Positions 2,286 through 24,790 of a stretch of 24,790 nt of DNA are shown here, piece by piece. The position numbers and the translations under genes were made by a program. Source of the stretch: a virus; the IMG/VR virus record IMGVR_UViG_3300038436_000150, positions 1 through 24,790 of that record. The stretch is one strand, 5' to 3'. How positions within the stretch are numbered: position 1 is the first letter of the stretch; each line of letters starts with the position of its first letter. Under the pieces are notes generated by a model. That model ran no database searches and was not told the DNA's origin. It saw only the letters and a list, made by a program, of their open reading frames with translations.

Positions 2286-3755
2286 ATGGCATCCGAAGAT
2301 CTGCGCAAAGAGATCGCCACCATTGGCAAAGACCCGTGGGTCATCACCTTTGGCGGCGTGCTGCGCAACCAGGACGATACCCTGCTCACCAGGGGCGGCG
2401 GCAAGGGGCTCAAGATCTACGACGAGATCGAGCGGGACTGCCACGCCTTTGCGGTGCTGCAAAAACGCAAACTGGCGGTGATCGCCCGCGAATGGCAGGT
2501 TGTGCCCGCCTCTGACAGCACCCTGGATAAGCAGGCCGCCGATTTGGTCAAGCGGCAGCTCGGCAACCTCAAGTTCGACCAGGTCTGCCTGAAGCTGCTG
2601 GACGCCACCCTCAAGGGCTACAGCGTGGGCGAGGTCATCTGGGAGACCGATGGCTCGGAGATCGTGGCCAGCCGGGTCAAGGTGAAGCCGCAGCGCCGCT
2701 TTGTCTTCGACGAGAATCAGGAGCCCCGCCTGTTGACCCAGGCCGATCTGATTACCGGCGAGCCGCTGCCGCCGCGCAAGTTCATCGTCCACCGCTACGG
2801 CGAGAAGGATGATGACAACCCCTACGGCCTGGGCCTCGGCCACAAGCTCTTCTGGCCTGTCCTGTTCAAACGCCAGGACATCACCTTCTGGCTCACCTTC
2901 GTGGATAAATTCGCCTCGCCCACGGCCGTGGGCGAATACCCTGCCGGCACCAGCGACGCGGACCAGAAGAAGCTGCTGGCCGCGCTCTCGTCCATTGCCT
3001 CCGAGGCGGGGATTGCCATACCCCAAGGGATGCTGGTCCGCTTCCTGGAGGCGGCCAGGTCCGGTTCCATCGACACCTACGAACGGCTTGCCCGCTACAT
3101 GGACGAACAGATCAGCGAATGCGTGCTGGGCGAAACCCTCTCCACCAACGTCGGCACCGTGGGCAGCAAGGCCGCCTCCCAGACCCACAACGAGGTGCGC
3201 ACGGAGCTGAGCAAGGCTGACGGGGATCTGCTCTCCGATACCCTCAACGAGACCCTGGTCCGCTGGATCGTGGAGCTGAACCTGCCGGGCGCCGGCCTGC
3301 CCAAGGTGTGGCGCGACTTTACCGAGGCCGACGATCTCAAGCTCCGCTCCGAGCGGGATAAAAACCTGACCGAGATGGGCTTTGAACCGGATGAGCAGTA
3401 CATCAGCGACACCTACGGCGGCAAGTGGGTGAAAAAACAGGCCGCGTCCCCGTCTTTATCGCCAGTGGCGGCGGCGCAGTTCGCCGAGCCCGGCCGGCCT
3501 GGTTTTACCAGCGACCAGCAGGCTATCGAGGGGCTGGCGGATGCCGCTCTGGTCGAGGCCGATCTCTCCGGCAACGAGGCGAAACTGCTGGCCGCCATCC
3601 AGGGCGCGACCAGCTACGAGGATGCCATGGAGAAACTGCTGGCCCTCTGGCCGGAACTGACCATGGACGATATGGCGGCGGCGTTGGAGCCGGCCCTGCT
3701 CAGCGCCGGGCTGTTCGGACAATACCGGGCCGGCAAGGACACGGGTAATGACTGA
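2286..3755 (+). CDS. Phage portal protein (DUF935, Mu gp29-like)
   Basis: A 489-residue portal subunit of the DUF935 family. Characteristic pieces are GYSVGEVIWE (111-120), the RQDITFWLTFVDKFASP stretch (196-212) and LGETLSTNVGTVGSKAA (281-297), which resembles the conserved LGQTLT...GSxA region of Mu gp29. It should form the dodecameric ring at the head vertex through which DNA enters and leaves. The ATG follows the terminase TAA with no gap, so translation is likely coupled. The C-terminal 80 residues are Ala-rich and acidic and may hold the site for terminase or head-completion proteins. The end overlaps the MuF gene by 8 bases. Confidence 0.93.
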   Translation: MASEDLRKEIATIGKDPWVITFGGVLRNQDDTLLTRGGGKGLKIYDEIERDCHAFAVLQKRKLAVIAREWQVVPASDSTLDKQAADLVKRQLGNLKFDQVCLKLLDATLKGYSVGEVIWETDGSEIVASRVKVKPQRRFVFDENQEPRLLTQADLITGEPLPPRKFIVHRYGEKDDDNPYGLGLGHKLFWPVLFKRQDITFWLTFVDKFASPTAVGEYPAGTSDADQKKLLAALSSIASEAGIAIPQGMLVRFLEAARSGSIDTYERLARYMDEQISECVLGETLSTNVGTVGSKAASQTHNEVRTELSKADGDLLSDTLNETLVRWIVELNLPGAGLPKVWRDFTEADDLKLRSERDKNLTEMGFEPDEQYISDTYGGKWVKKQAASPSLSPVAAAQFAEPGRPGFTSDQQAIEGLADAALVEADLSGNEAKLLAAIQGATSYEDAMEKLLALWPELTMDDMAAALEPALLSAGLFGQYRAGKDTGND

Positions 3756-4998
3756 ACTTGAACTCAAACCGTTGCCCATGGCCGAAGCGCAAACCTTCTG
3801 GCGCGACAAGGTGCTGCTCGGCCCCGGCCAGTTCAATCGCCTGGCCGCCGAGGCCAAGCTCAAGGCATTCGCCATCTCGGGCATTGCCAAGGGTGACGAG
3901 CTGACCACGGTGTACAACGCCATCGGCAAGGCCATCGACCAGGGCATCACCTTCGAGCAGTTCAAGGCCGAGTGCGGCGACATCTTCGAGCGCCGTGGCT
4001 GGACCGGCAAGCGGGCCTGGCGGGTGGACAACATCTTTCGCACCAACATTCAGACCGCTTACAACGTGGGCCGCTACCAGCAGCTCGCCGGCATGACCGA
4101 TGCCTTTCCCTTCTGGAAGTACAGCGCGGTCAATGATTCCCGCACCAGGCCCACTCACCTGGCCATGAACGGCAAGGTCTATCCGGCCGGCCACCCTTTC
4201 TGGGATACCTGGTATCCGCCCAACGGGTACCGCTGCCGCTGCTCGGTGATCCCGCTTACCGCCAGCCAGGTGAAGAGCCGTGGTCTCACGGTGGAGACCG
4301 ACATCCCGGAGCTGATCGAGCCCATTGATCCGCTCACCGGCAACAAGATGCCGGCCATGCAGCTCATGCCCGATCCAGGCTTTGCCTACCATCCTGGGAA
4401 GACGGCATGGGGCGGAATGATGGAGGCGAGCACCCGCGGCGTGTTCCGTGACCTGCCTCATCTCCATGGCCCGGCCGACTTCCGGCGCCGGGCGCTTGAG
4501 AACGTGCGGCCGGCCGACCTCCCGGATTTGACCGAGGAGATGCTTTTGCCGGCCGGCCAAGGCGCTGCTTTCTATCAGGCTGAGTTCCTGCGGCGCTATG
4601 GCGAGGAGCAGGTGCTGCGCGACGCGGCCGGCGAACCGGTGATCCTCTCCTTGCGGTCATTTTTGGCGGACAAGACACCGGGCGCGGAGCCGGCCTGGAA
4701 ATTCGAGAAGCCGGGCCACGGCGAGACGATACCGCTGCTGGCTGATCTGATCGACCAACCGTTCGAGATATGGCTCACGCCACAGCGGGATGAGCAGACC
4801 GGCCGGGTGCGGTTGGCCAAACGTTATGTCGGGCTCTGGAAGACGGAAGACAAAGCGCGGGTCGGCGGGCTCGCGGTTTTCGAGGTGGCTGACGGAGTGT
4901 TCCAGGGGGTGACGGCCTTTGCGCCGCTGAGAAAAGGAAAGCCCGACCTCCGCTACCTGGAGCAGCAGCGGCGCGGGCTTCTGTTGTTCGGACGGTGA
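3748..4998 (+). CDS. Minor head protein MuF (SPP1 gp7 family) with C-terminal PBECR2-like toxin domain
   Basis: A 416-residue protein with two parts. Residues about 60-175 carry the MuF/SPP1 gp7 signature: FRTNIQTAYNVGRY (97-110), WKYSAVNDSRTRPTH (123-137), NGKVYPAGHPFWD (141-153) and PPNGYRCRCSV (157-167). This domain sits near the portal in the head. Residues about 275-416 resemble the phage barnase/EndoU/ColicinE5-D/RelE-like nuclease fold PBECR2, with IPLLADLIDQPFEIWL (328-343), RLAKRYVGLW (355-364), a FEV...GVTAF strand pair and a final RRGLLLFGR. Such fusions are known in Mu-like phages and suggest a nuclease ejected with the DNA. The domain call is from pattern recognition only, and catalytic residues are not identified. 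AAGGA lies before the ATG. Confidence 0.88.
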   Translation: MTELELKPLPMAEAQTFWRDKVLLGPGQFNRLAAEAKLKAFAISGIAKGDELTTVYNAIGKAIDQGITFEQFKAECGDIFERRGWTGKRAWRVDNIFRTNIQTAYNVGRYQQLAGMTDAFPFWKYSAVNDSRTRPTHLAMNGKVYPAGHPFWDTWYPPNGYRCRCSVIPLTASQVKSRGLTVETDIPELIEPIDPLTGNKMPAMQLMPDPGFAYHPGKTAWGGMMEASTRGVFRDLPHLHGPADFRRRALENVRPADLPDLTEEMLLPAGQGAAFYQAEFLRRYGEEQVLRDAAGEPVILSLRSFLADKTPGAEPAWKFEKPGHGETIPLLADLIDQPFEIWLTPQRDEQTGRVRLAKRYVGLWKTEDKARVGGLAVFEVADGVFQGVTAFAPLRKGKPDLRYLEQQRRGLLLFGR

Positions 4999-9743: not shown

Positions 9744-10667
9744 ATGTTACGCACAAGAAACACCCAGGTGGCGCTCAAGGTCGAGGCGGTGGAGGGCACC
9801 AAGGAAGCCTTGGCAGCAGCCGATGCCATCCTGGCCGCGAATGCCAAGTTCTCGCCGGCTGTGGGAATGCACAAGCGCGACAACTATACCGGCAGTTTGT
9901 CGCCAGGCCCGAATCAGCCCGGAGCAAGAAACGCCACCATCTCCTTCGACGTGGAGCTGCGCGGCGCCGCTGCCGCCGGCACCGCGCCGGACTATTCCGC
10001 CGCCCTGCGTGCCTGCGGGATCGCGGAAACCATCGTGGCATTGACCTCGGTAACCTACAAGCCCACCTCGGCCACGATTCCCAGCGCCACGGTGGCCATC
10101 TACGAGGATGGCAAGGTCAAGCGGATATGGGGAGCGCGCGGCACCGCCACCATCAAGTATCAGGTGGGCGCGCCGGCCGTTATCAGCTTTACCTTCACTG
10201 GCGCGGATTGGGAGGTGGTGGATGGCGCCCTGCTCGCCGGAGTCGCCTACCCGTCCATCGTGCCGCCGGTCTTCATGGGGGTGGTGTTTTCCATCGGCGG
10301 CTATTCCGCGGTGATCAACGCCATGGACCATGATTTCGGCAATACCGTGGCCCTGCGCAAGTCCGCCGCGGCAGACAGCGGCCACCTCAGCGCCATGATT
10401 ACCGGCCGCGCATCGACACTCAAGATCGACCCGGAGGAGGTTTTGAACGCCACCCAGGATTTCTTCGGTATCTGGCGTGGCGGCACGCTGGTGGCTTTGT
10501 CCGCCAGCATGGGGAGCGCGGCCGGCAACCGTATCGCCGTTTCCGCTCCCAAGGTGCAGTACCAGTCCGTCGAGCCCGGCGACCGGGACGGCCTCTCCAC
10601 CCTGAATATCAACGCTCTCTTGAGTCGGGATGCCGGGGATGACGAGTGGCAGATACAAATCACCTGA
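9744..10667 (+). CDS. Major tail tube protein
   Basis: A 307-residue protein placed between the neck genes and the chaperone/tape-measure genes, where long-tailed phages encode the tube subunit. It starts LRTRNTQVALKVEAVEGTKEA, a pattern common to tail tube proteins ('...al.ve...gt...'), then has repeated beta strands such as GARNATISFDVELRG and TATIKYQVGAPAVISFTFTGAD, and ends with RDAGDDEWQIQIT. It should polymerise around the tape measure to form the tail. The length is somewhat above the 150-250 residues of many tubes, so an extra surface domain is possible. GGAGGA precedes the start. Confidence 0.8.
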   Translation: MLRTRNTQVALKVEAVEGTKEALAAADAILAANAKFSPAVGMHKRDNYTGSLSPGPNQPGARNATISFDVELRGAAAAGTAPDYSAALRACGIAETIVALTSVTYKPTSATIPSATVAIYEDGKVKRIWGARGTATIKYQVGAPAVISFTFTGADWEVVDGALLAGVAYPSIVPPVFMGVVFSIGGYSAVINAMDHDFGNTVALRKSAAADSGHLSAMITGRASTLKIDPEEVLNATQDFFGIWRGGTLVALSASMGSAAGNRIAVSAPKVQYQSVEPGDRDGLSTLNINALLSRDAGDDEWQIQIT

Positions 10668-10729: not shown

Positions 10730-11185
10730 ATGTTGGTGTTTGACCGGAAACGGCAGGAAGAGATCAAGGACGGCGTCTGGCGCGATTACGAGGGTGGGGT
10801 CGCATCCAAGATCAGGCCGATGAATCAGGAGGTCGCGCGTCGTATTCGCAAGGAGGCGCAGAAGAATGGCCGGTTCGATCAGGAGCTGCATGATCGGCTA
10901 TTCTGGGATTACCTCATCGCCGACTGGAATGTCCAGGAAGCGGTAAAGGAAAACGGGGAGGTGGTGGGCACCAAGCCCATGCCCTGCACCGCGGAGAACA
11001 AGTTGCTGGTGGTGCGGGCATGGCAGGGATACCGCCTGTGGGTCGCCTCGTCCGCCGATTCCCTCGGCGAGGAGGCGGCTCAGGTCGCCGAGGCCGCACT
11101 GGGAAACTCAGGCGGTTCGCCCGCTGGCAGGCGAACCGACCACGAAGAGGAGACCAGTATCTCTCCTGCACCGGCTGCCGGGTAA
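10730..11185 (+). CDS. Tail assembly chaperone, short form (lambda gpG-like)
   Basis: A 151-residue protein starting at ATG 10730 behind GAGGAG. The segment LVFDRKRQEEIKDGVWRDYEGGV resembles the first chaperone of long-tailed phages, and its place between tail tube and tape measure is where all such phages keep a two-frame chaperone gene. After Asn126 the zero frame adds a low-complexity tail (SGGSPAGRRTDHEEE...) and stops at 11185. The protein likely coats the tape measure before tube polymerisation. Most ribosomes are expected to make this form, and a minority to shift at 11101-11107 and make the long form. Confidence 0.8.
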   Translation: MLVFDRKRQEEIKDGVWRDYEGGVASKIRPMNQEVARRIRKEAQKNGRFDQELHDRLFWDYLIADWNVQEAVKENGEVVGTKPMPCTAENKLLVVRAWQGYRLWVASSADSLGEEAAQVAEAALGNSGGSPAGRRTDHEEETSISPAPAAG

Positions 11186-11445
11186 TCCGGGAGCTAGCGC
11201 CGGAGCGGGTGCCAACCTCTTGCGAGGCCTGCGGCCAGGTTGAGTTGCTGCCGGAGAATTACGAGGTATGGGGGTTGTACGCCACCTACCCCGGCCTCAT
11301 CAGGCAGGGCCTGGACGGCACCTGGGTGGATTATCCCTCTGCCCTGCGGATCATAGACGAAGAAGCGTACCAGGAGCCGCTGACGATGCTCCGTAAACTG
11401 GAAGCGATACGCCAAGGACTATGCCAGAGAACAAGGTCCAGATAG
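10730..11445 (+). CDS. Tail assembly chaperone, -1 frameshift fusion (lambda gpGT-like)
   Basis: Shifting -1 at the GGGAAAC heptamer joins residues 1-126 of the short form to 112 residues in the -1 frame, giving about 238 residues. The extension continues LRRFARWQ, then has a four-cysteine zinc-ribbon-like pair (CTGC ... CEAC) and a helical part (ELLPENYEVWGLYATYPGL, WVDYPSALRII) resembling the DUF1799-type second chaperone of Mu-like siphophages. The -1 frame has no good independent start after the slip site, which supports expression as a fusion. In lambda gpG is 140 and gpGT 279 residues, a similar ratio. Its 3' end overlaps the tape measure start by 25 bases. Confidence 0.78.
11101..11138 (+). 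promoter_or_regulatory. Programmed -1 ribosomal frameshift signal
   Basis: The heptamer G GGA AAC (11101-11107) lies in the correct register of the upstream frame (GGA 11102-11104, AAC 11105-11107), fitting the X XXY YYZ rule. After a 5-base spacer (TCAGG), CGGTTCGCC (11113-11121) pairs perfectly with GGCGAACCG (11130-11138) across an 8-base loop, giving a 9-bp GC-rich stem. Lambda uses the near-identical G GGA AAG in its G/GT gene. A purine-rich GAGG (11090-11093) upstream might act as a weak internal Shine-Dalgarno. Slip site, spacer and stem are all visible directly; efficiency is not known. Confidence 0.85.
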
Positions 11446-13832
11446 TCGTCGAGGTTGACGCCAAAACCGGCCAGGCTGTTATCCGTCAGCTCGGTCAGGA
11501 GATGGACAACGCCGGCCACAAGGGCGCGGCCGGCTTCGGCCGGGCCTCGGCGGGCGCGGATCGTCTCCGCCAGAGCATGGCCCCGGTGGTGGGTTTGGCA
11601 ACTCAACTGGTTGGTGGGCTGACCGCGGTCGGTGCGCTGATGATTGCGAAAGATGCCGCCTTGGCCGCTGCCCGGTACGAAACTCTGGGCGTGGCCATGA
11701 AAGTGGTGGGCAACAACGCCGGGTACACCGGCGCCGAGATGGCTGGCTTTGCCGCTGCATTGCAGCAAAACGGCATCGCCATGACCGAATCGCGGGAGAC
11801 TTTGACCCGCATGGCACAGGCCCATATCGACCTCACCAAAGCATCTCAGCTTGCCCGTATTGCCCAGGATGCCGCGGTGATCGGCAACATCAACTCATCC
11901 GAGGCGTTCGAGCGGATGATCCATGGCGTCCAATCGGGCCAGATCGAAGTCCTGCGGACGATCGGCATCAATGTCAACTTCGAAAATTCGTATAAAAAGC
12001 TGGCCGCCCAGCTCGGCAAGACCAGCGAGGAGCTGACAGAGACCGAAAAGATGACCGCCCGCGTCAACGTGGTCATGGAGGCCGGCGCTGGTATTGCCGG
12101 CACTTACGAAGCGGCCATGACCACCGCCGGCAAACAGCTTCTTTCCGTGCAGCGGTACATCGATAACCTGGGGGTGACTGCCGGCTCAGTGTTTAACGAT
12201 GTGCTGATCGTCGGCGTGGCAGGCTTTACTGCCGGCCTCAAGGAGGCCAATAGTGAGGCCTCGGCGTTGGCGGCGAACGGCACCCTGGCGGCCTGGGGAA
12301 AGGGGCTCACTTACACCTTCGCCATTCTGGCAGATACGGTGGCCATCCCGTTCAAGACGATCGCTTCCGGCGTGAATTATATCATGGCCGCCGGATTCGC
12401 CGTCGTAAAGTTCTCCGAGATGTACGGGAATGCTGCTGCACGCAATTTTGCCGCCGCCAAGCGGAACTGGCAAGAACTGAAAGGGATTGGTGCCACCCTG
12501 GTCGAGACAGAACAAGAGCGTTGGAAGAATGCCGGCGGCGATTTTACCACCTCCGCCAGCCAGATGTACGCCTCCCGAGTTGCCAACGCCGAGAAAGATG
12601 CGGCCGCCGCGGCCGCCGCCGAAAAAAAGAGGATGGCTGCCGGTGCGGCAGCCAGAGCCCAAGCCGAGGCGGACGAACGGGCCGCTGGCGCACTCAAAAA
12701 ACAGCAAGGCGAAGCCAAAAAGGCAGCGGCCCAGGCTGCGAGTCTGGCCAAAGAGTGGGAAAAAGTAAAGCTGGAGTTGACCGACGAAACAGGTGCGGTG
12801 GCCCTCACCGGCCTCGATCACGCCTTGGCCGAGATCGACAAGAAGGCGGATCAGTTGCGCCGGAAATTCGGTAATCGGCCGGAGATCGACGAGTGGCAGG
12901 CCGCGGCCGAAAACGCAAAAATCCAGGCCAAGGTCCAGGAGGACTTGACCAAGGCCACCGAGGATTACCGCGAGGTGGCGCTGGCCTCCCTCTCCGAGCA
13001 GGATCGGGCGGTCGCCAAGGTAGTCTCCGAATACGACCACTACCGGCAGGTGGTGGTGGACTGGGGTGCCGCCGCGATTGCCGCCGGCAAGGATCAGGCC
13101 ACCACCATGGATGAGGTGTACAACCGCCTCGATGCCCTCGACCGCGCCCAGGGCGAGGAGGTGCAGCATGCCAAGGACCAGGCCGGCGAGCTGACCGAGT
13201 TCCAGAAGCAGGCGTATCGCAACATGGAATCGGCTGGCGCCGATTTCTTCCACTCTCTCCGCACGGACTCTGACGATTGGCTGGACAACTGGGTGGATAT
13301 GCTCGGCCGCATGGTGGACGAGTGGGCCTCGGCGCAGATGATGATGGGCCTCTTCGGCCAGGACTTCGGCAAGGGCGGTGCGCTTGGCGGCGTGGTCGGT
13401 GGACTGGTGAATGACTGGAATACCGCTGGCACCTGGCTTGGTGACCTACATATCGCCGCCGTTGCCCACTCGGGCTGGAATGTAGGGACAGAATCGGCGC
13501 CGGCCTATCGGGCCGTGAGCCCATCCCTCTTCGCCAACGCCCCTCGCTTCCACAACGGGCTGGCTCCGGACGAGTTCCCGGCAATTTTACAGGAGGGCGA
13601 GCGAGTATGGTCTGTTGACCAAGTTCGCCAAGCAAAAACGGCGGCATCATCTTCCACTTCCACTACCCCCGCCGCCAGCCCAGGGCCAATCAACGTCACC
13701 ATCATCGCGGCGGATGCCCAGTCGATCACCGAGATGATGCGCCGCAATCCCCAGGCCGTGCTCGGCCCGCTCCGCGAGGCCCTGCGCGGCGGCGACCGGG
13801 GCCTGCGGGCTGACCTGCAACGGGTGATGTGA
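11421..13832 (+). CDS. Phage tail tape measure protein
   Basis: An 803-residue protein, the longest in the tail region apart from the tip protein. It begins MPENKVQIVVEVDAKTGQAV, typical for tape measures (N-terminal 'v.vd...a...l'). It contains hydrophobic segments (VGLATQLVGGLTAVGALMIA, FNDVLIVGVAGFTAGL) and a long Ala/Lys/Glu coiled coil (roughly residues 385-450, AEKDAAAAAAAEKKRM...). The C-terminal part has Gly-rich and FHNGLAPDEFPAILQEGE-type sequence common at the ends of tape measures. It sets tail length; at about 0.15 nm per residue this predicts a tail near 120 nm. The start overlaps the chaperone fusion, with AAGGA upstream. Its stop overlaps the next start (TGATG). Confidence 0.9.
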   Translation: MPENKVQIVVEVDAKTGQAVIRQLGQEMDNAGHKGAAGFGRASAGADRLRQSMAPVVGLATQLVGGLTAVGALMIAKDAALAAARYETLGVAMKVVGNNAGYTGAEMAGFAAALQQNGIAMTESRETLTRMAQAHIDLTKASQLARIAQDAAVIGNINSSEAFERMIHGVQSGQIEVLRTIGINVNFENSYKKLAAQLGKTSEELTETEKMTARVNVVMEAGAGIAGTYEAAMTTAGKQLLSVQRYIDNLGVTAGSVFNDVLIVGVAGFTAGLKEANSEASALAANGTLAAWGKGLTYTFAILADTVAIPFKTIASGVNYIMAAGFAVVKFSEMYGNAAARNFAAAKRNWQELKGIGATLVETEQERWKNAGGDFTTSASQMYASRVANAEKDAAAAAAAEKKRMAAGAAARAQAEADERAAGALKKQQGEAKKAAAQAASLAKEWEKVKLELTDETGAVALTGLDHALAEIDKKADQLRRKFGNRPEIDEWQAAAENAKIQAKVQEDLTKATEDYREVALASLSEQDRAVAKVVSEYDHYRQVVVDWGAAAIAAGKDQATTMDEVYNRLDALDRAQGEEVQHAKDQAGELTEFQKQAYRNMESAGADFFHSLRTDSDDWLDNWVDMLGRMVDEWASAQMMMGLFGQDFGKGGALGGVVGGLVNDWNTAGTWLGDLHIAAVAHSGWNVGTESAPAYRAVSPSLFANAPRFHNGLAPDEFPAILQEGERVWSVDQVRQAKTAASSSTSTTPAASPGPINVTIIAADAQSITEMMRRNPQAVLGPLREALRGGDRGLRADLQRVM

Positions 13833-19722: not shown

Positions 19723-19953
19723 ATGGAGGAACCAGATGGAATGGCCAGATAAGTGAGGTCGGGACGGGGGGGATAGCCCCTTCCCCGACCAGGAGGAATA
19801 AAAGGAGCGGCTGGAGTGGTGCGGTAACACCACCCCAGCCACCGAACCCACAGAGGCAGCCTGTGAGCCCAGCCAAGGCTCCTCACCGCGACGTCACGGC
19901 GGGGTGGAGCTTATCACATCAAACATGGTTTGAAAAGTGGAGGCTCACGTATC
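19723..19953 (+). promoter_or_regulatory. Structured leader: run of stem-loops before the methyltransferase gene
   Basis: This 231-base gap holds no convincing gene but several consecutive inverted repeats. (1) GGTCGGG (19757-19763) pairs with CCCGACC (19784-19790), enclosing GGGG-ATAG-CCCC. (2) GGCTGG-A-GTGGTG (19809-19821) pairs with CACCAC-C-CCAGCC (19828-19840) around the loop CGGTAA, with one A/C mismatch in a 13-position stem. (3) CACAG (19849-19853) pairs with CTGTG (19861-19865). (4) GAGCC (19865-19869) can pair with GGCTC (19877-19881). (5) CAAAC-ATG-GTTTG lies at 19920-19932. GTGGAGG (19937-19943) is the likely ribosome site for the gene that follows. No T-run follows any hairpin, so simple termination is unlikely. 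A role in controlling the methyltransferase is inference. Confidence 0.6.
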
Positions 19954-20784
19954 ATGCCCAAACCCATAATCCCCTGGATCGGCGGCAAGCGAAAGCTGGC
20001 GTCGGCCATATTTCCGCTTTTCCCGGATCACCAGTGTTATGTGGAGCCGTTCTGCGGGGCGGCTGCCCTGTTTTTTCTCAAGCAACCGTCGCCGGTGGAA
20101 GTGCTGAACGATATCAACGGCGAGTTGGTCAACCTATACCGGGTGGTCAAGCACCATCTGGAGGAGCTGTATAAGCAGTTCAAGTGGACCCTGGCGAGTC
20201 GCAGTAACTGGGAGTGGCTCCAAGTCACCCCTGCCAAGACGCTCACGGATGTCCAGCGGGCGGCCCGTTTCCTGTACCTCCAAAAGCTCGCCTTTGGCGG
20301 TAAGGTGGACGGCCAGTGTTTCGGTACCGCCACGACCAGCCGGCCGAGATTCAACATCTTCACCCTGGAGGAAGACCTTCAGGAGGCCCACTTTCGCTTG
20401 GCTCGCACGACCATCGAGCATCTGCCCTGGCAAGAGGCGGTCTGCCGCTACGACCGGCCGCACACCCTCTTTTACTGCGATCCGCCTTATTGGCAGGTGG
20501 AGGGCTATGGTGTAGATTTCCCATGGGAAGAGTACGAGGCCCTGGCCAGGATGGCCAAGGAGATCGAGGGGCAGATGATCATCTCGATCAACGATCACCC
20601 CGACATTCGCGAGTTATTCAAGGGCTTGCCGGTGGTAGAGATCGACCACAAGTACACCGTGGCCGGCGGCGACTCGGCAACGAGCTGCGTTGAACTGGTA
20701 TATGGGACGTGGCCAGGTGGTGTGCCAAGGCCAAGGGTTGTTCAGCAAGGTTTGTTTGACGGCACAGGCTCAAATGTGTTTTGA
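19954..20784 (+). CDS. Phage DNA N6-adenine methyltransferase (D12/Dam class)
   Basis: A 276-residue enzyme from ATG 19954, with GTGGAGG ten bases upstream; the frame is open to a TTG at 19930, which lacks such a site. Motifs of the D12 class are clear: PWIGGKRKL (7-15, motif X), YVEPFCGAAALFF (29-41, SAM-binding motif I), VLNDINGELVNLYR (50-63) and the catalytic DPPY (176-179). It transfers a methyl group from S-adenosylmethionine to adenine, as Dam does on GATC, although the target here cannot be read from sequence. As the last gene before the phage right end it holds the place of mom in Mu, so protection of phage DNA from restriction is the likely job. The stop is 68 bases from the phage end. 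Confidence 0.92.
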   Translation: MPKPIIPWIGGKRKLASAIFPLFPDHQCYVEPFCGAAALFFLKQPSPVEVLNDINGELVNLYRVVKHHLEELYKQFKWTLASRSNWEWLQVTPAKTLTDVQRAARFLYLQKLAFGGKVDGQCFGTATTSRPRFNIFTLEEDLQEAHFRLARTTIEHLPWQEAVCRYDRPHTLFYCDPPYWQVEGYGVDFPWEEYEALARMAKEIEGQMIISINDHPDIRELFKGLPVVEIDHKYTVAGGDSATSCVELVYGTWPGGVPRPRVVQQGLFDGTGSNVF

Positions 20785-20797
20785 TCTGGTCAAGACG

Positions 20798-20852
20798 ATT
20801 TCGGCGACGAGTTTTCGCAATTTTCGCGCTCGGGTTTTCGCGCGCCGCTTCA
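20798..20852 (+). repeat. Right end of the transposable phage (Mu attR-like transposase sites)
   Basis: Three TTTTCGC heptamers (20812-20818, 20821-20827, 20835-20841) and a degenerate fourth (near 20798) precede the terminal GCGCCGCTTCA at 20842-20852. From memory of the published Mu end, Mu finishes TTTTTCGTGCGCCGCTTCA, so the last 18 bases here differ at one position. MuA-binding sites of Mu contain CGAAA-type cores, which read TTTCG on this strand. The element ends with CA, as Mu-family ends do. The base after it begins a sequence shared with host repeats at 22828 and elsewhere. A 5-base target duplication would be AGAAA (20853-20857), but the left end is outside the window. Confidence 0.75.
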
Positions 20853-20938
20853 AGAAAAGAACGCAGAGGCGCAAGGGCGCGGAGAATTTCCCGGCAAAAA
20901 ACTTTGCGTCCTTGCGCCTTGGCGTTGTGCTTTTGTCT
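20853..20938. repeat. Host intergenic repeat, type B, copy 1 (phage insertion site)
   Basis: Left arm AAGAACGCAGAGGCGCAAGG and right arm CTTGCGCCTTGGCGTTGTGC form a long imperfect inverted repeat. Related copies lie near 21745-21785 (right arm only), 22582-22690 and 22825-22920. The left arm begins directly at the phage end, so the phage has inserted in or next to this copy and presumably removed or displaced its start to the far side of the prophage. The copies fit the class of dispersed 'GCAAAGGCGC' repeats found between genes of many bacteria. They have no coding capacity and may act as bidirectional transcription terminators. Confidence 0.7.
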
Positions 20939-20953
20939 TTGGCTGACAGCTAT

Positions 20954-21026
20954 CCCGTAGGAGCCGCTTCAGCGGCGATCGAAACGAGGCAGGATCGCGG
21001 CTCAAGCCGCTTCTGCTGGGGTGCGA
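20954..21026. repeat. REP-like palindromic element, type A, copy 1
   Basis: GTAGGAGCCGCTTCAGCGGC followed, after about 20 bases, by GCGGCTCAAGCCGCTTCTGC. Each arm contains its own small palindrome (CCGCTTCAGCGG), and the two arms are also roughly inverted to each other. The sequence is very similar to REP elements of the GTAGGAGCGGCTTCAGCCGCGA type known from other proteobacteria. Three more copies follow in this window. No REP-associated transposase (RAYT) gene is seen here. Confidence 0.75.
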
Positions 21027-21048
21027 GATGATCGCTGACGGCTGATTG

Positions 21049-21345
21049 CTACTCGCTATTTTTCCGCCGCATCAACTCGGAGAACAGCTCATACACCTCC
21101 CGGCGATGGCCCACGGCGTGAACTCGGATAGTCTCGCGTGGTGGCGGGTCAACCGTATAGATGATCCGATACCGTTTTGTTTTGAAGGCAAGAAAACCGG
21201 TCAGTTCTTCTTGGAGTTCCTTGCCGGCCGACGGTCTCCGCGCGATCTCGTTGAGGGCGGCCCGGATGAGTTTTTTGATGTCGGGAGAAAGGTGGGTCAC
21301 CGCTTCCGCCACTGCCGGCGTCAGTAAGATACGGTGTCCTTTCAT
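21049..21345 (-). CDS. RelE/ParE-family toxin
   Basis: A 98-residue basic protein with the plan of RelE/ParE toxins: N-terminal helices (SPDIKKLIRAALNEIARRP, residues 20-38), then GKELQEELTGFLAFKTKRYRIIYTVD (beta strands with the family-typical 'YRIIY') and a VHAVGHRREVYELF end that resembles the 'I..IghR.dvY' motif. RelE members cut mRNA on the ribosome and ParE members poison gyrase; which applies is not decided by sequence alone, although the HRREVY ending is common in the RelE-like branch. Its ATG overlaps the antitoxin stop (ATGA), so the two are translated together from the minus strand. Confidence 0.88.
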   Translation of the reverse strand: MKGHRILLTPAVAEAVTHLSPDIKKLIRAALNEIARRPSAGKELQEELTGFLAFKTKRYRIIYTVDPPPRETIRVHAVGHRREVYELFSELMRRKNSE

Positions 21346-21611
21346 TCCGGCAGCACCGAGTCAACGTCCAGCCAGCGGCCATGGCGCGCGTCCTCGCGGG
21401 ATTTGTTGAGTTGCGCCATGATCTCCGGGTCGGCCAGTATTTCGATGGTTTCGAGCAACCCCTCGAAGCGGGCCAGGCTGATGAGCACCGCCTCGGGCAC
21501 GCCATTTTTGGTGATAGCGTACGTGTCATCCCGGTCATGGATGGCGCGGACCATATCCAGTAATTTGCTCTTGGCCTGGGTGATCGGGACAAAATGTTCG
21601 ATGGTGGTCAT
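21342..21611 (-). CDS. Phd/YefM-family antitoxin
   Basis: An 89-residue protein. The start at 21611 (MTTIEHFVPITQAKSKLLDMV) is chosen because GAGGAG lies six bases upstream and the Phd/YefM fold begins here; an ATG at 21707 would add a segment unlike the family and cross the promoter. The DNA-binding N-terminal domain shows ITQAKSKLLDMVRAI and the DTYAITKNGVPEAVLIS strand pair, the classic 'y.It.nG.p.aVl.s' signature. The acidic C-terminus (LNKSREDARHGRWLDVDSVLPE) should wrap and neutralise the toxin. It is the first gene of the operon and probably represses it together with the toxin. Confidence 0.9.
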   Translation of the reverse strand: MTTIEHFVPITQAKSKLLDMVRAIHDRDDTYAITKNGVPEAVLISLARFEGLLETIEILADPEIMAQLNKSREDARHGRWLDVDSVLPE

Positions 21612-21623
21612 GATGCGCTCCTC

Positions 21624-21670
21624 GTGGTTGTTGATATGGTCACAATAACAACCACTCCGGAAAAGGTCAA
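21624..21670 (-). promoter_or_regulatory. Promoter and operator of the Phd/RelE operon
   Basis: On the minus strand TTGACC (21665-21670) and TATTGT (21642-21647) are separated by 17 bases, a good sigma70 arrangement. A perfect 9-base inverted repeat, GTGGTTGTT (21624-21632) and AACAACCAC (21647-21655) with 14 bases between, overlaps the -10 box. A dimeric antitoxin bound there would block RNA polymerase, as in other Phd/YefM systems. Transcription would start near 21635, giving a leader of about 24 bases with GAGGAG. Sequence is direct; function is inferred. Confidence 0.7.
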
Positions 21671-21734
21671 GAGACAGGGACAAGGTGAGCATGCGGTGAT
21701 AAGCCATCAGCTTTCAGTTTCAGCGGACCCGCCG

Positions 21735-21890
21735 ACCACTCTCTCTGTTCCCCTTCGCGTCTTTGCGCCTCTGCGTTCTTCTTTAGCTGATAGCTGTTAG
21801 CTGACCGCTGATAACCGTCTCGTAGGAGTCGCTTCAGCGGCGACCGAACCGAAGCAGGATCGCGGCTCAAGCCGCTCCTGCTGGGGTGCG
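21735..21890. repeat. Composite host repeat, copy 2 (type B right arm, C repeats and type A)
   Basis: This holds the right arm of type B (CGTCTTTGCGCCTCTGCGTTC, split here as about 21755-21779), then the short AGCTGATAGCTGTTAGCTGA repeats (21784-21803), then the REP-like element GTAGGAGTCGCTTCAGCGGC with its partner GCGGCTCAAGCCGCTCCTGC (21822-21882). The part from 21773 is nearly identical to 22676-22795 with the first 56 bases the same. The left arm of type B is missing, so the copy is truncated. Together with the promoter region it fills the gene-free stretch 21612-21916. Confidence 0.8.
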
Positions 21891-21916
21891 TCCGAAGGCT
21901 GACAGCTATCTGCTCT

Positions 21917-22207
21917 CTACGCCGCGTGGCGGAAGTCCTTCACCTTGAGTTCCGCTGCTTTCTGTTGAGCATGCCAGAGGTCGTACTGCAACTGATGGTT
22001 GAGCCAGCTTTCCGGGCTGCCGCCAAAGGCTTTGGCCAAGCGGATGGCCATGACCGGGGTGACATTGGCGCGGCCGTTCAGCACGGCGGAGAGAGTTTTT
22101 CTGGTCACCCCAAGCCCCTTGGCTGCCTCGGTCACGGTCAATCCCAGCGGTTCGAGGCATGCCTCACGAATCAATTCGCCCGGATGTGGTGGGTCATGCA
22201 TCAGCAT
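21917..22207 (-). CDS. higA: HigA-family antitoxin (XRE helix-turn-helix)
   Basis: A 96-residue protein. It begins [20 protein letters not shown], the 'PphPGeiLre.fL.plglt' start shared by HigA/VapI antitoxins, then has a helix-turn-helix ([20 protein letters not shown] and [19 protein letters not shown]) and the typical [20 protein letters not shown] end. It should bind HigB and repress the operon. ATG 22207 has AAAGGAG eight bases upstream; the ATG two codons later is an alternative. As in other higBA loci the toxin gene comes first, 18 bases upstream on the minus strand. Confidence 0.93.
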
Positions 22208-22225
22208 AGTGTCTTCTCCTTTGGG

Positions 22226-22504
22226 TTAATGATAATCAAGGTAGTCAACATCAACCGCCTCGGTTCCTTGGAAGCGGAAAACAAGGCGCCAGTTGCCGGA
22301 AACGGCCACGCTGTAATAGCCCTCTCGGTCGCCCCTCAGCGCATGGAGCTTGAAGCCGGGCAGGTCCATGTCATCCGCCGAGGTGCTGGTGTGCAGGCGG
22401 ACCAGGAGGAGCCGCAGCCGTTTGGCGTGGTCGGCATTGATCCCTTTTTTGCTGCCGGCAAGGAAGAAATCGCGCAACCCCTTGTGGCTGAAATTCTTGA
22501 TCAT
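22226..22504 (-). CDS. higB: HigB-family toxin (RelE superfamily mRNA interferase)
   Basis: A 92-residue protein with the HigB signature: GLRDFFLAGSKKGINADHAKRLRLLLVRL in two N-terminal helices, then DMDLPGFKLHALRGDREGYYSVAVSGNWRLVFRF and a DVDYLDYH end. The family's 'LPG..LH.L.G.r.g.ysv.v.gNwRl.F.f.....vdv.yeDYH' pattern is complete, so the toxin is probably active. HigB cuts mRNA on translating ribosomes. It precedes higA on the minus strand. No Shine-Dalgarno is obvious before its ATG, and the predicted transcription start is at about the ATG itself, suggesting leaderless or very weak translation of the toxin. Confidence 0.94.
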   Translation of the reverse strand: MIKNFSHKGLRDFFLAGSKKGINADHAKRLRLLLVRLHTSTSADDMDLPGFKLHALRGDREGYYSVAVSGNWRLVFRFQGTEAVDVDYLDYH

Positions 22505-22508
22505 GAAG

Positions 22509-22539
22509 AACGTATAACCCGTAACGTTCCAGGTGTCAA
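22509..22539 (-). promoter_or_regulatory. Promoter and candidate operator of higBA
   Basis: On the minus strand a perfect -35 box TTGACA (22534-22539) is followed after 16 bases by TTATAC (22512-22517). The predicted transcription start is within one or two bases of the HigB ATG at 22504. An inverted repeat AACGT/ACGTT with 10 bases between covers 22509-22528 and overlaps the -10 box, fitting a HigA operator. Binding by HigA is inferred. Confidence 0.65.
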
Positions 22540-22581
22540 TTCTTCGCGTCCTTGCATTTTGCCTTTGAGCTTTCAGCCGTC

Positions 22582-22795
22582 AGCAGGAACAGAAAACCCA
22601 GAGGCGCAAAGGCGCGGAACGTGCTACTCATCGCCGCTAAGCCTCTCATCCTGCCCCTTGCGTCTCTGCGCCTTGGCGTTCTTCTTTAGCTGATAGCTGT
22701 TAGCTGACCGCTGATAACCGTCTCGTAGGAGCCGCTTCAGCGGCGACCGAACCGAAGCAGGGTCGCGGCTCAGCCGCTCCTGCAGCGGGTTGCGT
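22582..22795. repeat. Composite host repeat, copy 3 (types B, C and A)
   Basis: Type B left arm (AGAGGCGCAAAGGCGCGGAA, about 22596-22621), a unique centre, type B right arm (GCGTCTCTGCGCCTTGGCGT, 22660-22679), then AGCTGATAGCTGTTAGCTGA (22689-22708), then the REP-like GTAGGAGCCGCTTCAGCGGC and its partner GCGGCTCAGCCGCTCCTGCA (22725-22784). The section 22676-22795 is almost a copy of 21773-21890. No gene is seen in it. Confidence 0.8.
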
Positions 22796-22800
22796 TTGGG

Positions 22801-23032
22801 ACGTCAGCTTTTAGCTGTCAGCGGTCAGCAAGAACAGAAGAACGCCAAGGCGCAAAGGCGCGGAGGGTTGCCCTCTACTCCTTATCGCTAGCGCCTTTGC
22901 ACCTCTGCGTTGTTCTTTTGCTTTTAGCTTGATCGCTGATGGCTAAAAGCTGATAGCTGTCTCGTAGGAGCCGCTTCAGCGGCGACCGAACCGAAGCGGG
23001 GTCGCGGCTGAAGCCGCTCCTGCAGGGATGCA
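22801..23032. repeat. Composite host repeat, copy 4 (types C, B and A)
   Basis: Here AGCTTTTAGCTGTCAGCGGTCAGC precedes type B (left arm AAGAACGCCAAGGCGCAAAGG, about 22834-22854; right arm CGCCTTTGCACCTCTGCGTT, 22891-22910), then TAGCTTGATCGCTGATGGC and AGCTGATAGCTGT (22949-22961), then the REP-like pair GTAGGAGCCGCTTCAGCGGC (22964-22983) and GCGGCTGAAGCCGCTCCTGC (23004-23023). It is the cleanest example of the A element, with both arms intact. Copies 3 and 4 lie head to tail, upstream of the porin gene. Confidence 0.8.
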
Positions 23033-23059
23033 TCTGAAAGCGGATGGCTGATTGCTGAC

Positions 23060-23308
23060 CGCCCTTGGCCGCATGGTAAAAAAAATTGTATTTTTTCTGA
23101 GATTTGGTTCAGTTTTTTGTAGACAGGCCGAAATGAGTGCGGTATCACAGGATAACTTCCTGAATTTGCTTGTAATTAATTAAGTAAATTCTTAAGTGCG
23201 GCTCGGGGGATGGGCCGCGAGGGGAGGATGGCACGAAACCCGTGCCGTGGCAGGGGGTTGCAGAGGCAACTCCAAATGAAACACCTTTACGCATAAGGAG
23301 AAAGAGGG
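23060..23308 (+). promoter_or_regulatory. AT-rich upstream region and hairpin leader of the porin gene
   Basis: After the repeats the sequence turns AT-rich (23075-23200, with A- and T-runs and TTGCTTGTAATTAATTAAG), a likely promoter zone, though I cannot choose one -35/-10 pair with confidence. The following GC-rich leader holds a hairpin GGCACG-AAACC-CGTGCC (about 23230-23246) and a second GTTGC-AGAG-GCAAC (about 23258-23271). AAGGAG lies eight bases before ATG 23309. The leader does not contain the GACGCAAAGCC core of c-di-GMP/cGAMP (GEMM) riboswitches, so I leave its type open. Confidence 0.5.
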
Positions 23309-24790
23309 ATGCTGAAAAAAATTTCCGTACTGGCGTTCGCCGGCATGCTTGCGCTGCCTGCGGTCGCTGCCGCCGGAGCCGGCGGCGCTGCTTCCAGCCT
23401 CGACGCGCAGATCGCCGACCTGACCAAGCAGCTTGAGGCCCTGAAAGCCCAGATGAAAGACATGAAGGCCGATCAGGACGCCAAACTGAGCAAGATCGAC
23501 ACGTTTGAAGAGCGGGCAGAGGCATGGGATGCAGCCTCCCGCTTCCAGTGGTCCGGCGACTTCCGTTCACGCTATGATTGGTATGAGCGTGATCGCAAGA
23601 CCTCGGCAACCACATCGGTTACCGACAAGAACGAAAGTCTCTTCACGAATCGCCTCCGCCTGAACATGCGCGCCAAGGCCACCGAGAACGTCGAGTTCAA
23701 GGGCCGCCTCGCCATGTACAAGGCATGGGGCATGTCGGGAACGCCAAGCACTCCTGGTGATGCATGGGGCGCTTTCCCGGCCTTTGACGGAACCTCGGCC
23801 CGTCAGGTCGGCGACAACACCCTGCTGGTTGACCGCGCCTTTGTAAACTGGAACAACATCGGCGGCCAGCCGATCTGGTTCTCCATCGGTCGTCGTCCCA
23901 CCACCGATGGCCCCTCTGCCCAGTTGCGCATGGGCAACGATGAGCGCATGGCCACCCCGACGGCCTTTATGGACTGGCCCTTCGATGGTATTTCGGTAGG
24001 ATATGCCTATAACAGCCTCTTTGGGCTCACCGACGCCCCGGGCCGTATCCGCGTCTGCTATGGTCGCGGTTTTGAGGGCGGCCTGGAAGCGGATGCTACC
24101 GGCACCAACGATACCGACTTCGCCGGTGTGAGCTGGGATGTTTACAAAAAGGGGAGCCGGTTTGTTTATCTCCAATCATTTGTCGCCATGAATGTCTTCA
24201 ATTACCCTGACTTCAGCGATAACACGATGGATACGGCATACGCTACCTCGATGGGTGGCCGGAAAAACCTTGGCAATATCATCCATTCTTCGGCGGTGTA
24301 CGAGGACAAGTTCCAGAACCTGAACTACTTCGTCACCGGTGGCTGGAGCCGTACCGATCCGAACTCGAATGGCATGCTGGGGGTGGGTAATACCCATTCG
24401 GATAATGGGTATGCCCTGCATCTCGGCGGCCGTTACGATATCCCCAATCAGCCGTTCAAAGTTGGTCTTGAGTACAACCACGGCTCGAAGTACTGGATTG
24501 GCATGACCCCCGGTCACGATGACATGTATGCTGCCAAGCTGGCCACCCGTGGCGATGTGTACGAGGTGTACGGCATCTACGACATCCCCGGCGGCGAGGC
24601 GATCTCCAAGTTCGGTAAGGCCTTCATCCGTTTGGGCTACCAGCACTACGAGTACGACTACACCGGCTCGATGGACTGGAATATGGCCCCCAAAGATGTT
24701 GACAGCGAGTATGCTGCTGCTGCCGCCCAAGGACAGACTGTTGTTACGGATGCCGACCAGATCTACGCCACCTTCGAGGTGTATTTCTAA
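23309..24790 (+). CDS. Outer-membrane porin, DUF3373-like
   Basis: A complete 493-residue outer-membrane protein. It has a Sec signal peptide (MLKKISVLAFAGMLALPAVAAAG, cut near residues 20-23), a periplasmic coiled coil (SLDAQIADLTKQLEALKAQM, about 30-65), then a beta barrel with many alternating strands, for example FQWSGDFRSRYDWYERD, NRLRLNMRAKATENVEFKGRL and FIRLGYQHYEYDY. The last residues DQIYATFEVYF end with Phe, the usual signal for insertion by BAM. The overall plan matches the DUF3373 family common in Geobacter-like and Desulfobulbus-like bacteria. Substrate is unknown. Codon use and amino-acid composition differ from the phage block. It is preceded by a leader with hairpins and its stop is the last codon of the window. 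Confidence 0.85.
   Translation: MLKKISVLAFAGMLALPAVAAAGAGGAASSLDAQIADLTKQLEALKAQMKDMKADQDAKLSKIDTFEERAEAWDAASRFQWSGDFRSRYDWYERDRKTSATTSVTDKNESLFTNRLRLNMRAKATENVEFKGRLAMYKAWGMSGTPSTPGDAWGAFPAFDGTSARQVGDNTLLVDRAFVNWNNIGGQPIWFSIGRRPTTDGPSAQLRMGNDERMATPTAFMDWPFDGISVGYAYNSLFGLTDAPGRIRVCYGRGFEGGLEADATGTNDTDFAGVSWDVYKKGSRFVYLQSFVAMNVFNYPDFSDNTMDTAYATSMGGRKNLGNIIHSSAVYEDKFQNLNYFVTGGWSRTDPNSNGMLGVGNTHSDNGYALHLGGRYDIPNQPFKVGLEYNHGSKYWIGMTPGHDDMYAAKLATRGDVYEVYGIYDIPGGEAISKFGKAFIRLGYQHYEYDYTGSMDWNMAPKDVDSEYAAAAAQGQTVVTDADQIYATFEVYF

Follow-up and report, generated by a model that had tools for sequence, protein, structure and literature searches.

The window, by which we mean the whole 24,790-base stretch of DNA that makes up this virus record, carries a Mu-like head module (portal, a gpF-like protein and gp36) and a siphovirus tail module that includes DUF2460 and J-like proteins. 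At positions 3748-4998, a Mu gpF-like head protein is joined to a PBECR2 nuclease-like domain (Pfam E=2.6e-21). The right end of the window (19930-24790) encodes a D12 adenine methyltransferase, followed on the minus strand by ParE/Phd and HigB/HTH toxin-antitoxin pairs and then by a DUF3373 protein; this segment is probably a prophage end together with host DNA. Within the tail module, the interval that separates the tail-tube gene from the tape-measure gene is filled by two overlapping reading frames, a G-type tail assembly chaperone ORF and a T-type extension in the -1 frame (Table 1). PHROG 313, the tail assembly chaperone family, is matched by the G ORF of the window and by those of two relatives described below (L002 and L015).

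Table 1. Coordinates of the G/T locus and its flanking genes in the window.
Feature	Position	Strand	Evidence
Tail-tube gene (context)	9744..10667	+	Pfam Phage_tube_2, E=1.3e-11
G-type tail assembly chaperone ORF, 0 frame, 151 aa	10730..11185	+	PHROG 313 'Tail assembly chaperone', E=7.5e-10; tail-tube gene upstream, tape-measure gene downstream
Slippery heptamer G_GGA_AAC, in register	11101..11107	+	Direct reading; in-register scan
T-type extension, predicted to be reached by -1 shift, 112 codons	11107..11445	+	T frame conserved past slip site; no start codon before it in L002, L015; weak DUF1799 match, E=0.062
Spacer, 5 nt	11108..11112	+	Direct reading
Dual-coded overlap of G tail (0 frame) and T start (-1 frame)	11108..11185	+	6 of 78 positions free to change
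Predicted stimulatory hairpin, 5' arm CGGTTCGCC; holds T-frame Phe-Ala codons	11113..11121	+	MFE fold; arm-swap covariation test
Hairpin loop, 8 nt	11122..11129	+	MFE fold
Predicted stimulatory hairpin, 3' arm GGCGAACCG	11130..11138	+	MFE fold; arm-swap test
CxxC...CxxC of T extension (putative zinc ribbon)	11167..11232	+	All four cysteines kept in window, L002, L015, L031
Tape-measure gene (context), 25 nt overlap with T end	11421..13832	+	PHROG tape-measure families, best E=1.5e-9

Read from ATG 10730, the G frame crosses the slip site as ...CTG GGA AAC TCA..., and an in-register scan of the gene for X_XXY_YYZ returns a single match, G_GGA_AAC. The original prediction had placed this heptamer in exact register with the upstream frame, followed five bases on by a perfect 9-bp hairpin and by a 112-codon -1 extension that would give a 238-residue fusion. 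Each of these elements proved correct: the perfect stem is the minimum free energy (MFE) fold of the region (z about -3 against dinucleotide shuffles), and the -1 frame is open from 11107 to a stop at 11445, which sets the length of the fusion at 126 + 112 = 238 aa. A position in the overlap was counted as free when it could be changed without altering either of the two proteins.

The frequency with which such signals arise in this DNA was estimated from the window's own genes, where 11 in-register heptamers occur in 6,376 codon positions and a stem of at least 9 bp follows 0.25% of codon positions; about 0.03 cases of a heptamer with such a stem are expected, and two were found. The second is an in-register A_AAA_AAG in the tape-measure gene (12623-12629), with a 9-bp stem 4 nt later and a -1 frame open for 81 codons. 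This heptamer is absent from L002 and L015, and the combination was set aside as a second site because it is not conserved in either. Since a second heptamer and stem also occur in the window, the single-sequence statistic is suggestive rather than decisive, and it is the comparative evidence that decides.

Searches with the G protein returned no close relatives in viral contigs, genomes or phages, and the T protein found no match among phages. Matches to the T protein came from L002 (74% identity), which together with L003 represents one sequence in two IMG/VR metagenome records, and from L015 (79%), which belongs to a Deltaproteobacteria metagenome-assembled genome. When 395 genomes of the phylum of L015's genome were searched, only L015's own genome matched, along with a weak hit (L019) that we judged to be due to chance, its ORF layout not fitting the locus. 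L015 keeps GGGAAAC, and L002 has GGAAAAC at the same place.

These relatives bear directly on whether T might be a separate gene that overlaps G and has its own start, the heptamer being incidental. The window by itself would accommodate such an arrangement, as its -1 frame is open back to 10891 and contains ATG 11020 and GTG 11038 ahead of the heptamer. In L002 and L015, however, a stop closes the -1 frame 39-48 nt ahead of T. The stretch from the upstream stop to the heptamer contains no ATG, GTG or TTG in L002, L015 or two more loci described below (L039 and L045), nor any CTG in L002 and L015. The first usable start codon of L002 and L015 comes 35 or 69 residues inside T, so that the first CxxC pair of L002 and both pairs of L015 lie before it; with no start codon before the slip site, the conserved N-terminus of T can be reached in these two loci only by frameshifting. 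Over the 40 codons that precede the slip site, L002 and L015 differ by 10 synonymous and 10 nonsynonymous changes when read in the 0 frame, but by 2 and 20 when read in the -1 frame; over the first 12 codons that follow it, the -1 frame has 4 synonymous changes and no nonsynonymous ones and the 0 frame has 1 and 3. These substitutions indicate that the slip site marks the point where selection leaves the 0 frame and takes up the -1 frame. The poor conservation of the -1 codons ahead of the site and the recurrence of the heptamer in nearly all relatives (see below) likewise argue against an independently started T, which we regard as very improbable.

The same comparison constrains where the frame changes. 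A genuine shift could in principle arise by transcriptional slippage or elsewhere in the overlap. In some bacteria, frames are shifted by slippage of the polymerase on long runs of A, but the window site contains no homopolymer longer than 3. With respect to another ribosomal site, L002 carries an extra in-register C_CCA_AAA (L002:2217-2223), 39 nt after its GGAAAAC, where a shift would likewise enter T. Conservation of the T frame ahead of C_CCA_AAA argues that the upstream GGAAAAC is the site used in L002; T-frame conservation in fact begins with the first codon after the heptamer, and the G gene of the window has no further in-register heptamer. Slippage by the polymerase, or at another point in the overlap, is accordingly judged unlikely to a high degree, and a ribosomal shift at the heptamer remains the preferred reading.

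To look beyond close kin, the tail-tube protein was used as a query that is blind to the heptamer, yielding 28 phage records, of which 17 were read, chosen without duplicates and near-duplicates. In all 17 phages, the gene that occupies the chaperone position ahead of the tape measure carries an in-register heptamer close to its end, and a -1 shift there would enter a second ORF. The heptamer is GGGAAAC in 6, AAAAAAC in 10 and AAAAAAG in one (RcDurkin), the A site thus being AAC in 16 phages and AAG in one. The -1 ORFs span 101-142 codons, except in RHph_Y1_11 (10 codons), whose record ends soon after the site, and the codon right after the heptamer is a stop in 11 of the 17. The RcapMu record has a note, 'potential -1 frameshift', at this place; in the parts read of the other records, the proteins are listed separately. 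One paper reports no clear frameshift evidence for RcZahn (PMC8601537), yet gp27 of this phage (L047:3437-3940) has A_AAA_AAC four codons before the stop and a 137-codon -1 ORF with a cysteine cluster.

Other loci were reached through T. A DNA pattern that joined the heptamer to the FA(R)W motif of T picked up 15 contigs, which were left out of the conservation count because the heptamer was part of the query; 12 of them have G and T in the full layout, and a thirteenth (L031, complete in L036) is cut upstream, L031/L036 carrying G_GGA_AAC. Profiles of the T protein, which included some of these pattern-found members, led to two more loci, L039 (AAAAAAC) and L045 (GGAAAAC directly before TGA). 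The relatives fetched without the heptamer as a filter therefore number 21 (the 17 annotated phages, L002, L015, L039 and L045). Homologues lacking the heptamer, or a second frame that starts independently, had been named as evidence that would speak against the original prediction; what we found was a canonical in-register heptamer in 19 of the 21 and GGAAAAC at the same place in the other two, with AAC in the A site of 20. The replacement of the canonical heptamer by GGAAAAC (G_GAA_AAC) occurs in two unrelated relatives (L002:2178-2184 and L045:1495-1501), and GGAAAAC may be a recurrent non-canonical slip site.

This breadth of occurrence also speaks to a more trivial origin of the two ORFs, namely a single gene broken by a sequencing or assembly error. 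A one-base indel could give two adjacent overlapping frames, but the same -1 layout appears in L015, in the two independent metagenome records of L002 and in 17 annotated phages with unrelated DNA, and the 78-nt overlap remains dual-coded past the break. We consider the probability of such an error to be negligible. What the sequences show, then, is the signals, their register and conservation, and the change of selected frame at the heptamer.

Establishing the hairpin as part of the signal requires more care. Stem conservation in the closest kin proves nothing in this regard, because both frames are coding and dual coding fixes the stem: the overlap is allowed 48 variants, and every sampled one keeps at least 7 of the 9 stem pairs. 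Moreover, the predicted fold of L015 differs from that of the window. Conservation of GGGAAA together with the stem had been suggested as a check on the original prediction; a canonical heptamer is kept in 19 of the 21 relatives, while the perfect 9-bp stem is found in the window only, and it is the position and presence of a hairpin that are conserved. When the 42 nt that start at the fourth base after the heptamer were compared with codon-registered segments of the same loci, the post-heptamer region was found to be more stable than most (Fisher p = 1.4e-9 without the window; 8e-8 when adjusted for GC), with P24, S-CBS3, ThpS-P1 and JP1 showing no such signal individually.

An arm-swap permutation, in which each of 22 lineages had its 5' arm matched with its own 3' region or with that of another lineage and the energies were centred, shows that own arms pair better than swapped ones by -3.77 kcal/mol (p = 5e-5), with the same result when the window is omitted and p = 0.0015 for loci with FARW-type T only; the lineages are not all independent, and these p-values are approximate. 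At 50 other offsets, the effect reaches at best -1.54 kcal/mol, the peak falling exactly at the hairpin position. Compensating arms are exemplified by TTCGCC/GGCGAA in the window, which becomes TACGCC/GGCGTA in L039. A covariation peak this sharp, and at the right place, is hard to explain other than by a hairpin. An internal Shine-Dalgarno stimulator 5' of the heptamer was also considered. In the window it is unremarkable (16% of background positions are equally good), and it was dropped as a general part of the signal, being strong only in L015, RC1 and RcapMu/RcWaterboi.

The T extension itself has a CxxC-14-CxxC spacing of its cysteines. The original prediction had described this region as a zinc ribbon; the two CxxC pairs stand up to comparison (Table 1), and the ribbon is a putative assignment drawn from the cysteine pattern. 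An AlphaFold model of T had a pLDDT of 44 and was discarded. DUF1799 (Pfam PF08809), the common T domain of the group, matches 7 of 11 phage T domains at an E of 0.01 or better; the window T scores 14 bits against it, below the gathering cut-off of 26, and a profile comparison (hhalign) of window-type T with the phage T set gave a probability of 5%, which is not significant. A cysteine cluster, often of the form CxxC ... C ... CPR, is present in the T domains of L047, L048, L049, L050, L052, L004 and L014, and T domains that bind metal may thus be common across this tail type.

Taken together, we interpret the locus as a programmed -1 ribosomal frameshift like that of lambda G/GT, an already known type, and place the probability of this reading at roughly 95%. 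In the standard slippage model, tRNAs re-pair in the -1 frame while a hairpin holds the ribosome (PMC4066793, PMC10885494). Applied to the window, most ribosomes would read G to the stop at 11185 and produce the 151-aa chaperone, whereas a minority would be held up by the hairpin while tRNA-Gly and tRNA-Asn sit on GGA AAC; these tRNAs would re-pair on GGG AAA, and reading would resume from 11107 in the -1 frame to generate the 238-aa G-T fusion, with the cysteine cluster in its second domain. The lambda G protein binds the tape measure protein, and G-T contacts the tube subunit through its T part (PMC5009743); by analogy G would here coat the tape measure protein while the rarer G-T would recruit tail-tube subunits. 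Use of the signal in the cell, its shift rate and the roles of both products are inferred.

The likeness to lambda drawn in the original prediction holds for the type of shift, which the comparative data support, and breaks down at the A site. As in lambda gpG/gpGT (G_GGA_AAG), the gene lies before the tape measure, and towards the 3' end of G comes a -1 heptamer in register (PMC5009743). Lambda makes both G and the fused G-T product (PMC5009743), as is predicted for the window. In this comparison of layouts, the window differs in its A-site codon, which is AAC rather than AAG, in the strong hairpin immediately downstream and in the cysteine cluster of T. Rhodobacter phage RcapMu (gp49/gp50) shares the Mu-like head genes, a tube homologue, GGGAAAC and a strong hairpin, but has a TGA right after the heptamer and hence no dual-coded overlap, and its T is a DUF1799 protein without CxxC pairs. 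Burkholderia phage KL1 (gp18/gp19), compared by its description, has a predicted GGGAAAC adjoining the TGA of gp18 and a predicted stem-loop (PMC3483164), and unlike the window has an extra tail gene between T and the tape measure. The g-t genes of the haloarchaeal virus HCTV-1, also likened by description, use G_GGA_AAC for the shift (PMC5009743) in an archaeal host.

The steady use of AAC bears on decoding rules established in E. coli, where the best motifs are those that let the A-site tRNA re-pair cognately, AAC to AAA is less readily tolerated, and an A-site AAC is a weaker shifter than AAG (PMC4066793). This counts against the preferred reading, as do the non-canonical heptamer and the extra C_CCA_AAA of L002. 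Given that the two lambda products occur at a ratio of about 30:1 (PMC5009743), infrequent shifting may be desirable here as well. A tentative proposal, and one that we would not yet favor, is that the lineage has become fixed on an Asn-AAC A site (X_XXA_AAC nearly throughout, G_GAA_AAC twice), offset by the nearby hairpin and an often adjacent stop. Were this so, the AAC lineage would constitute a natural exception to the bacterial rule of cognate A-site tRNA re-pairing.

For annotation, the gene can be described as a single frameshifted G-T gene, here and in many related phages whose records mostly list two unconnected proteins. The matching hairpin arms provide comparative evidence that, in this tail type, an RNA hairpin downstream of the heptamer is under selection as part of the signal, and the constancy of AAC at the slip site poses a testable question about the rules of bacterial frameshifting.
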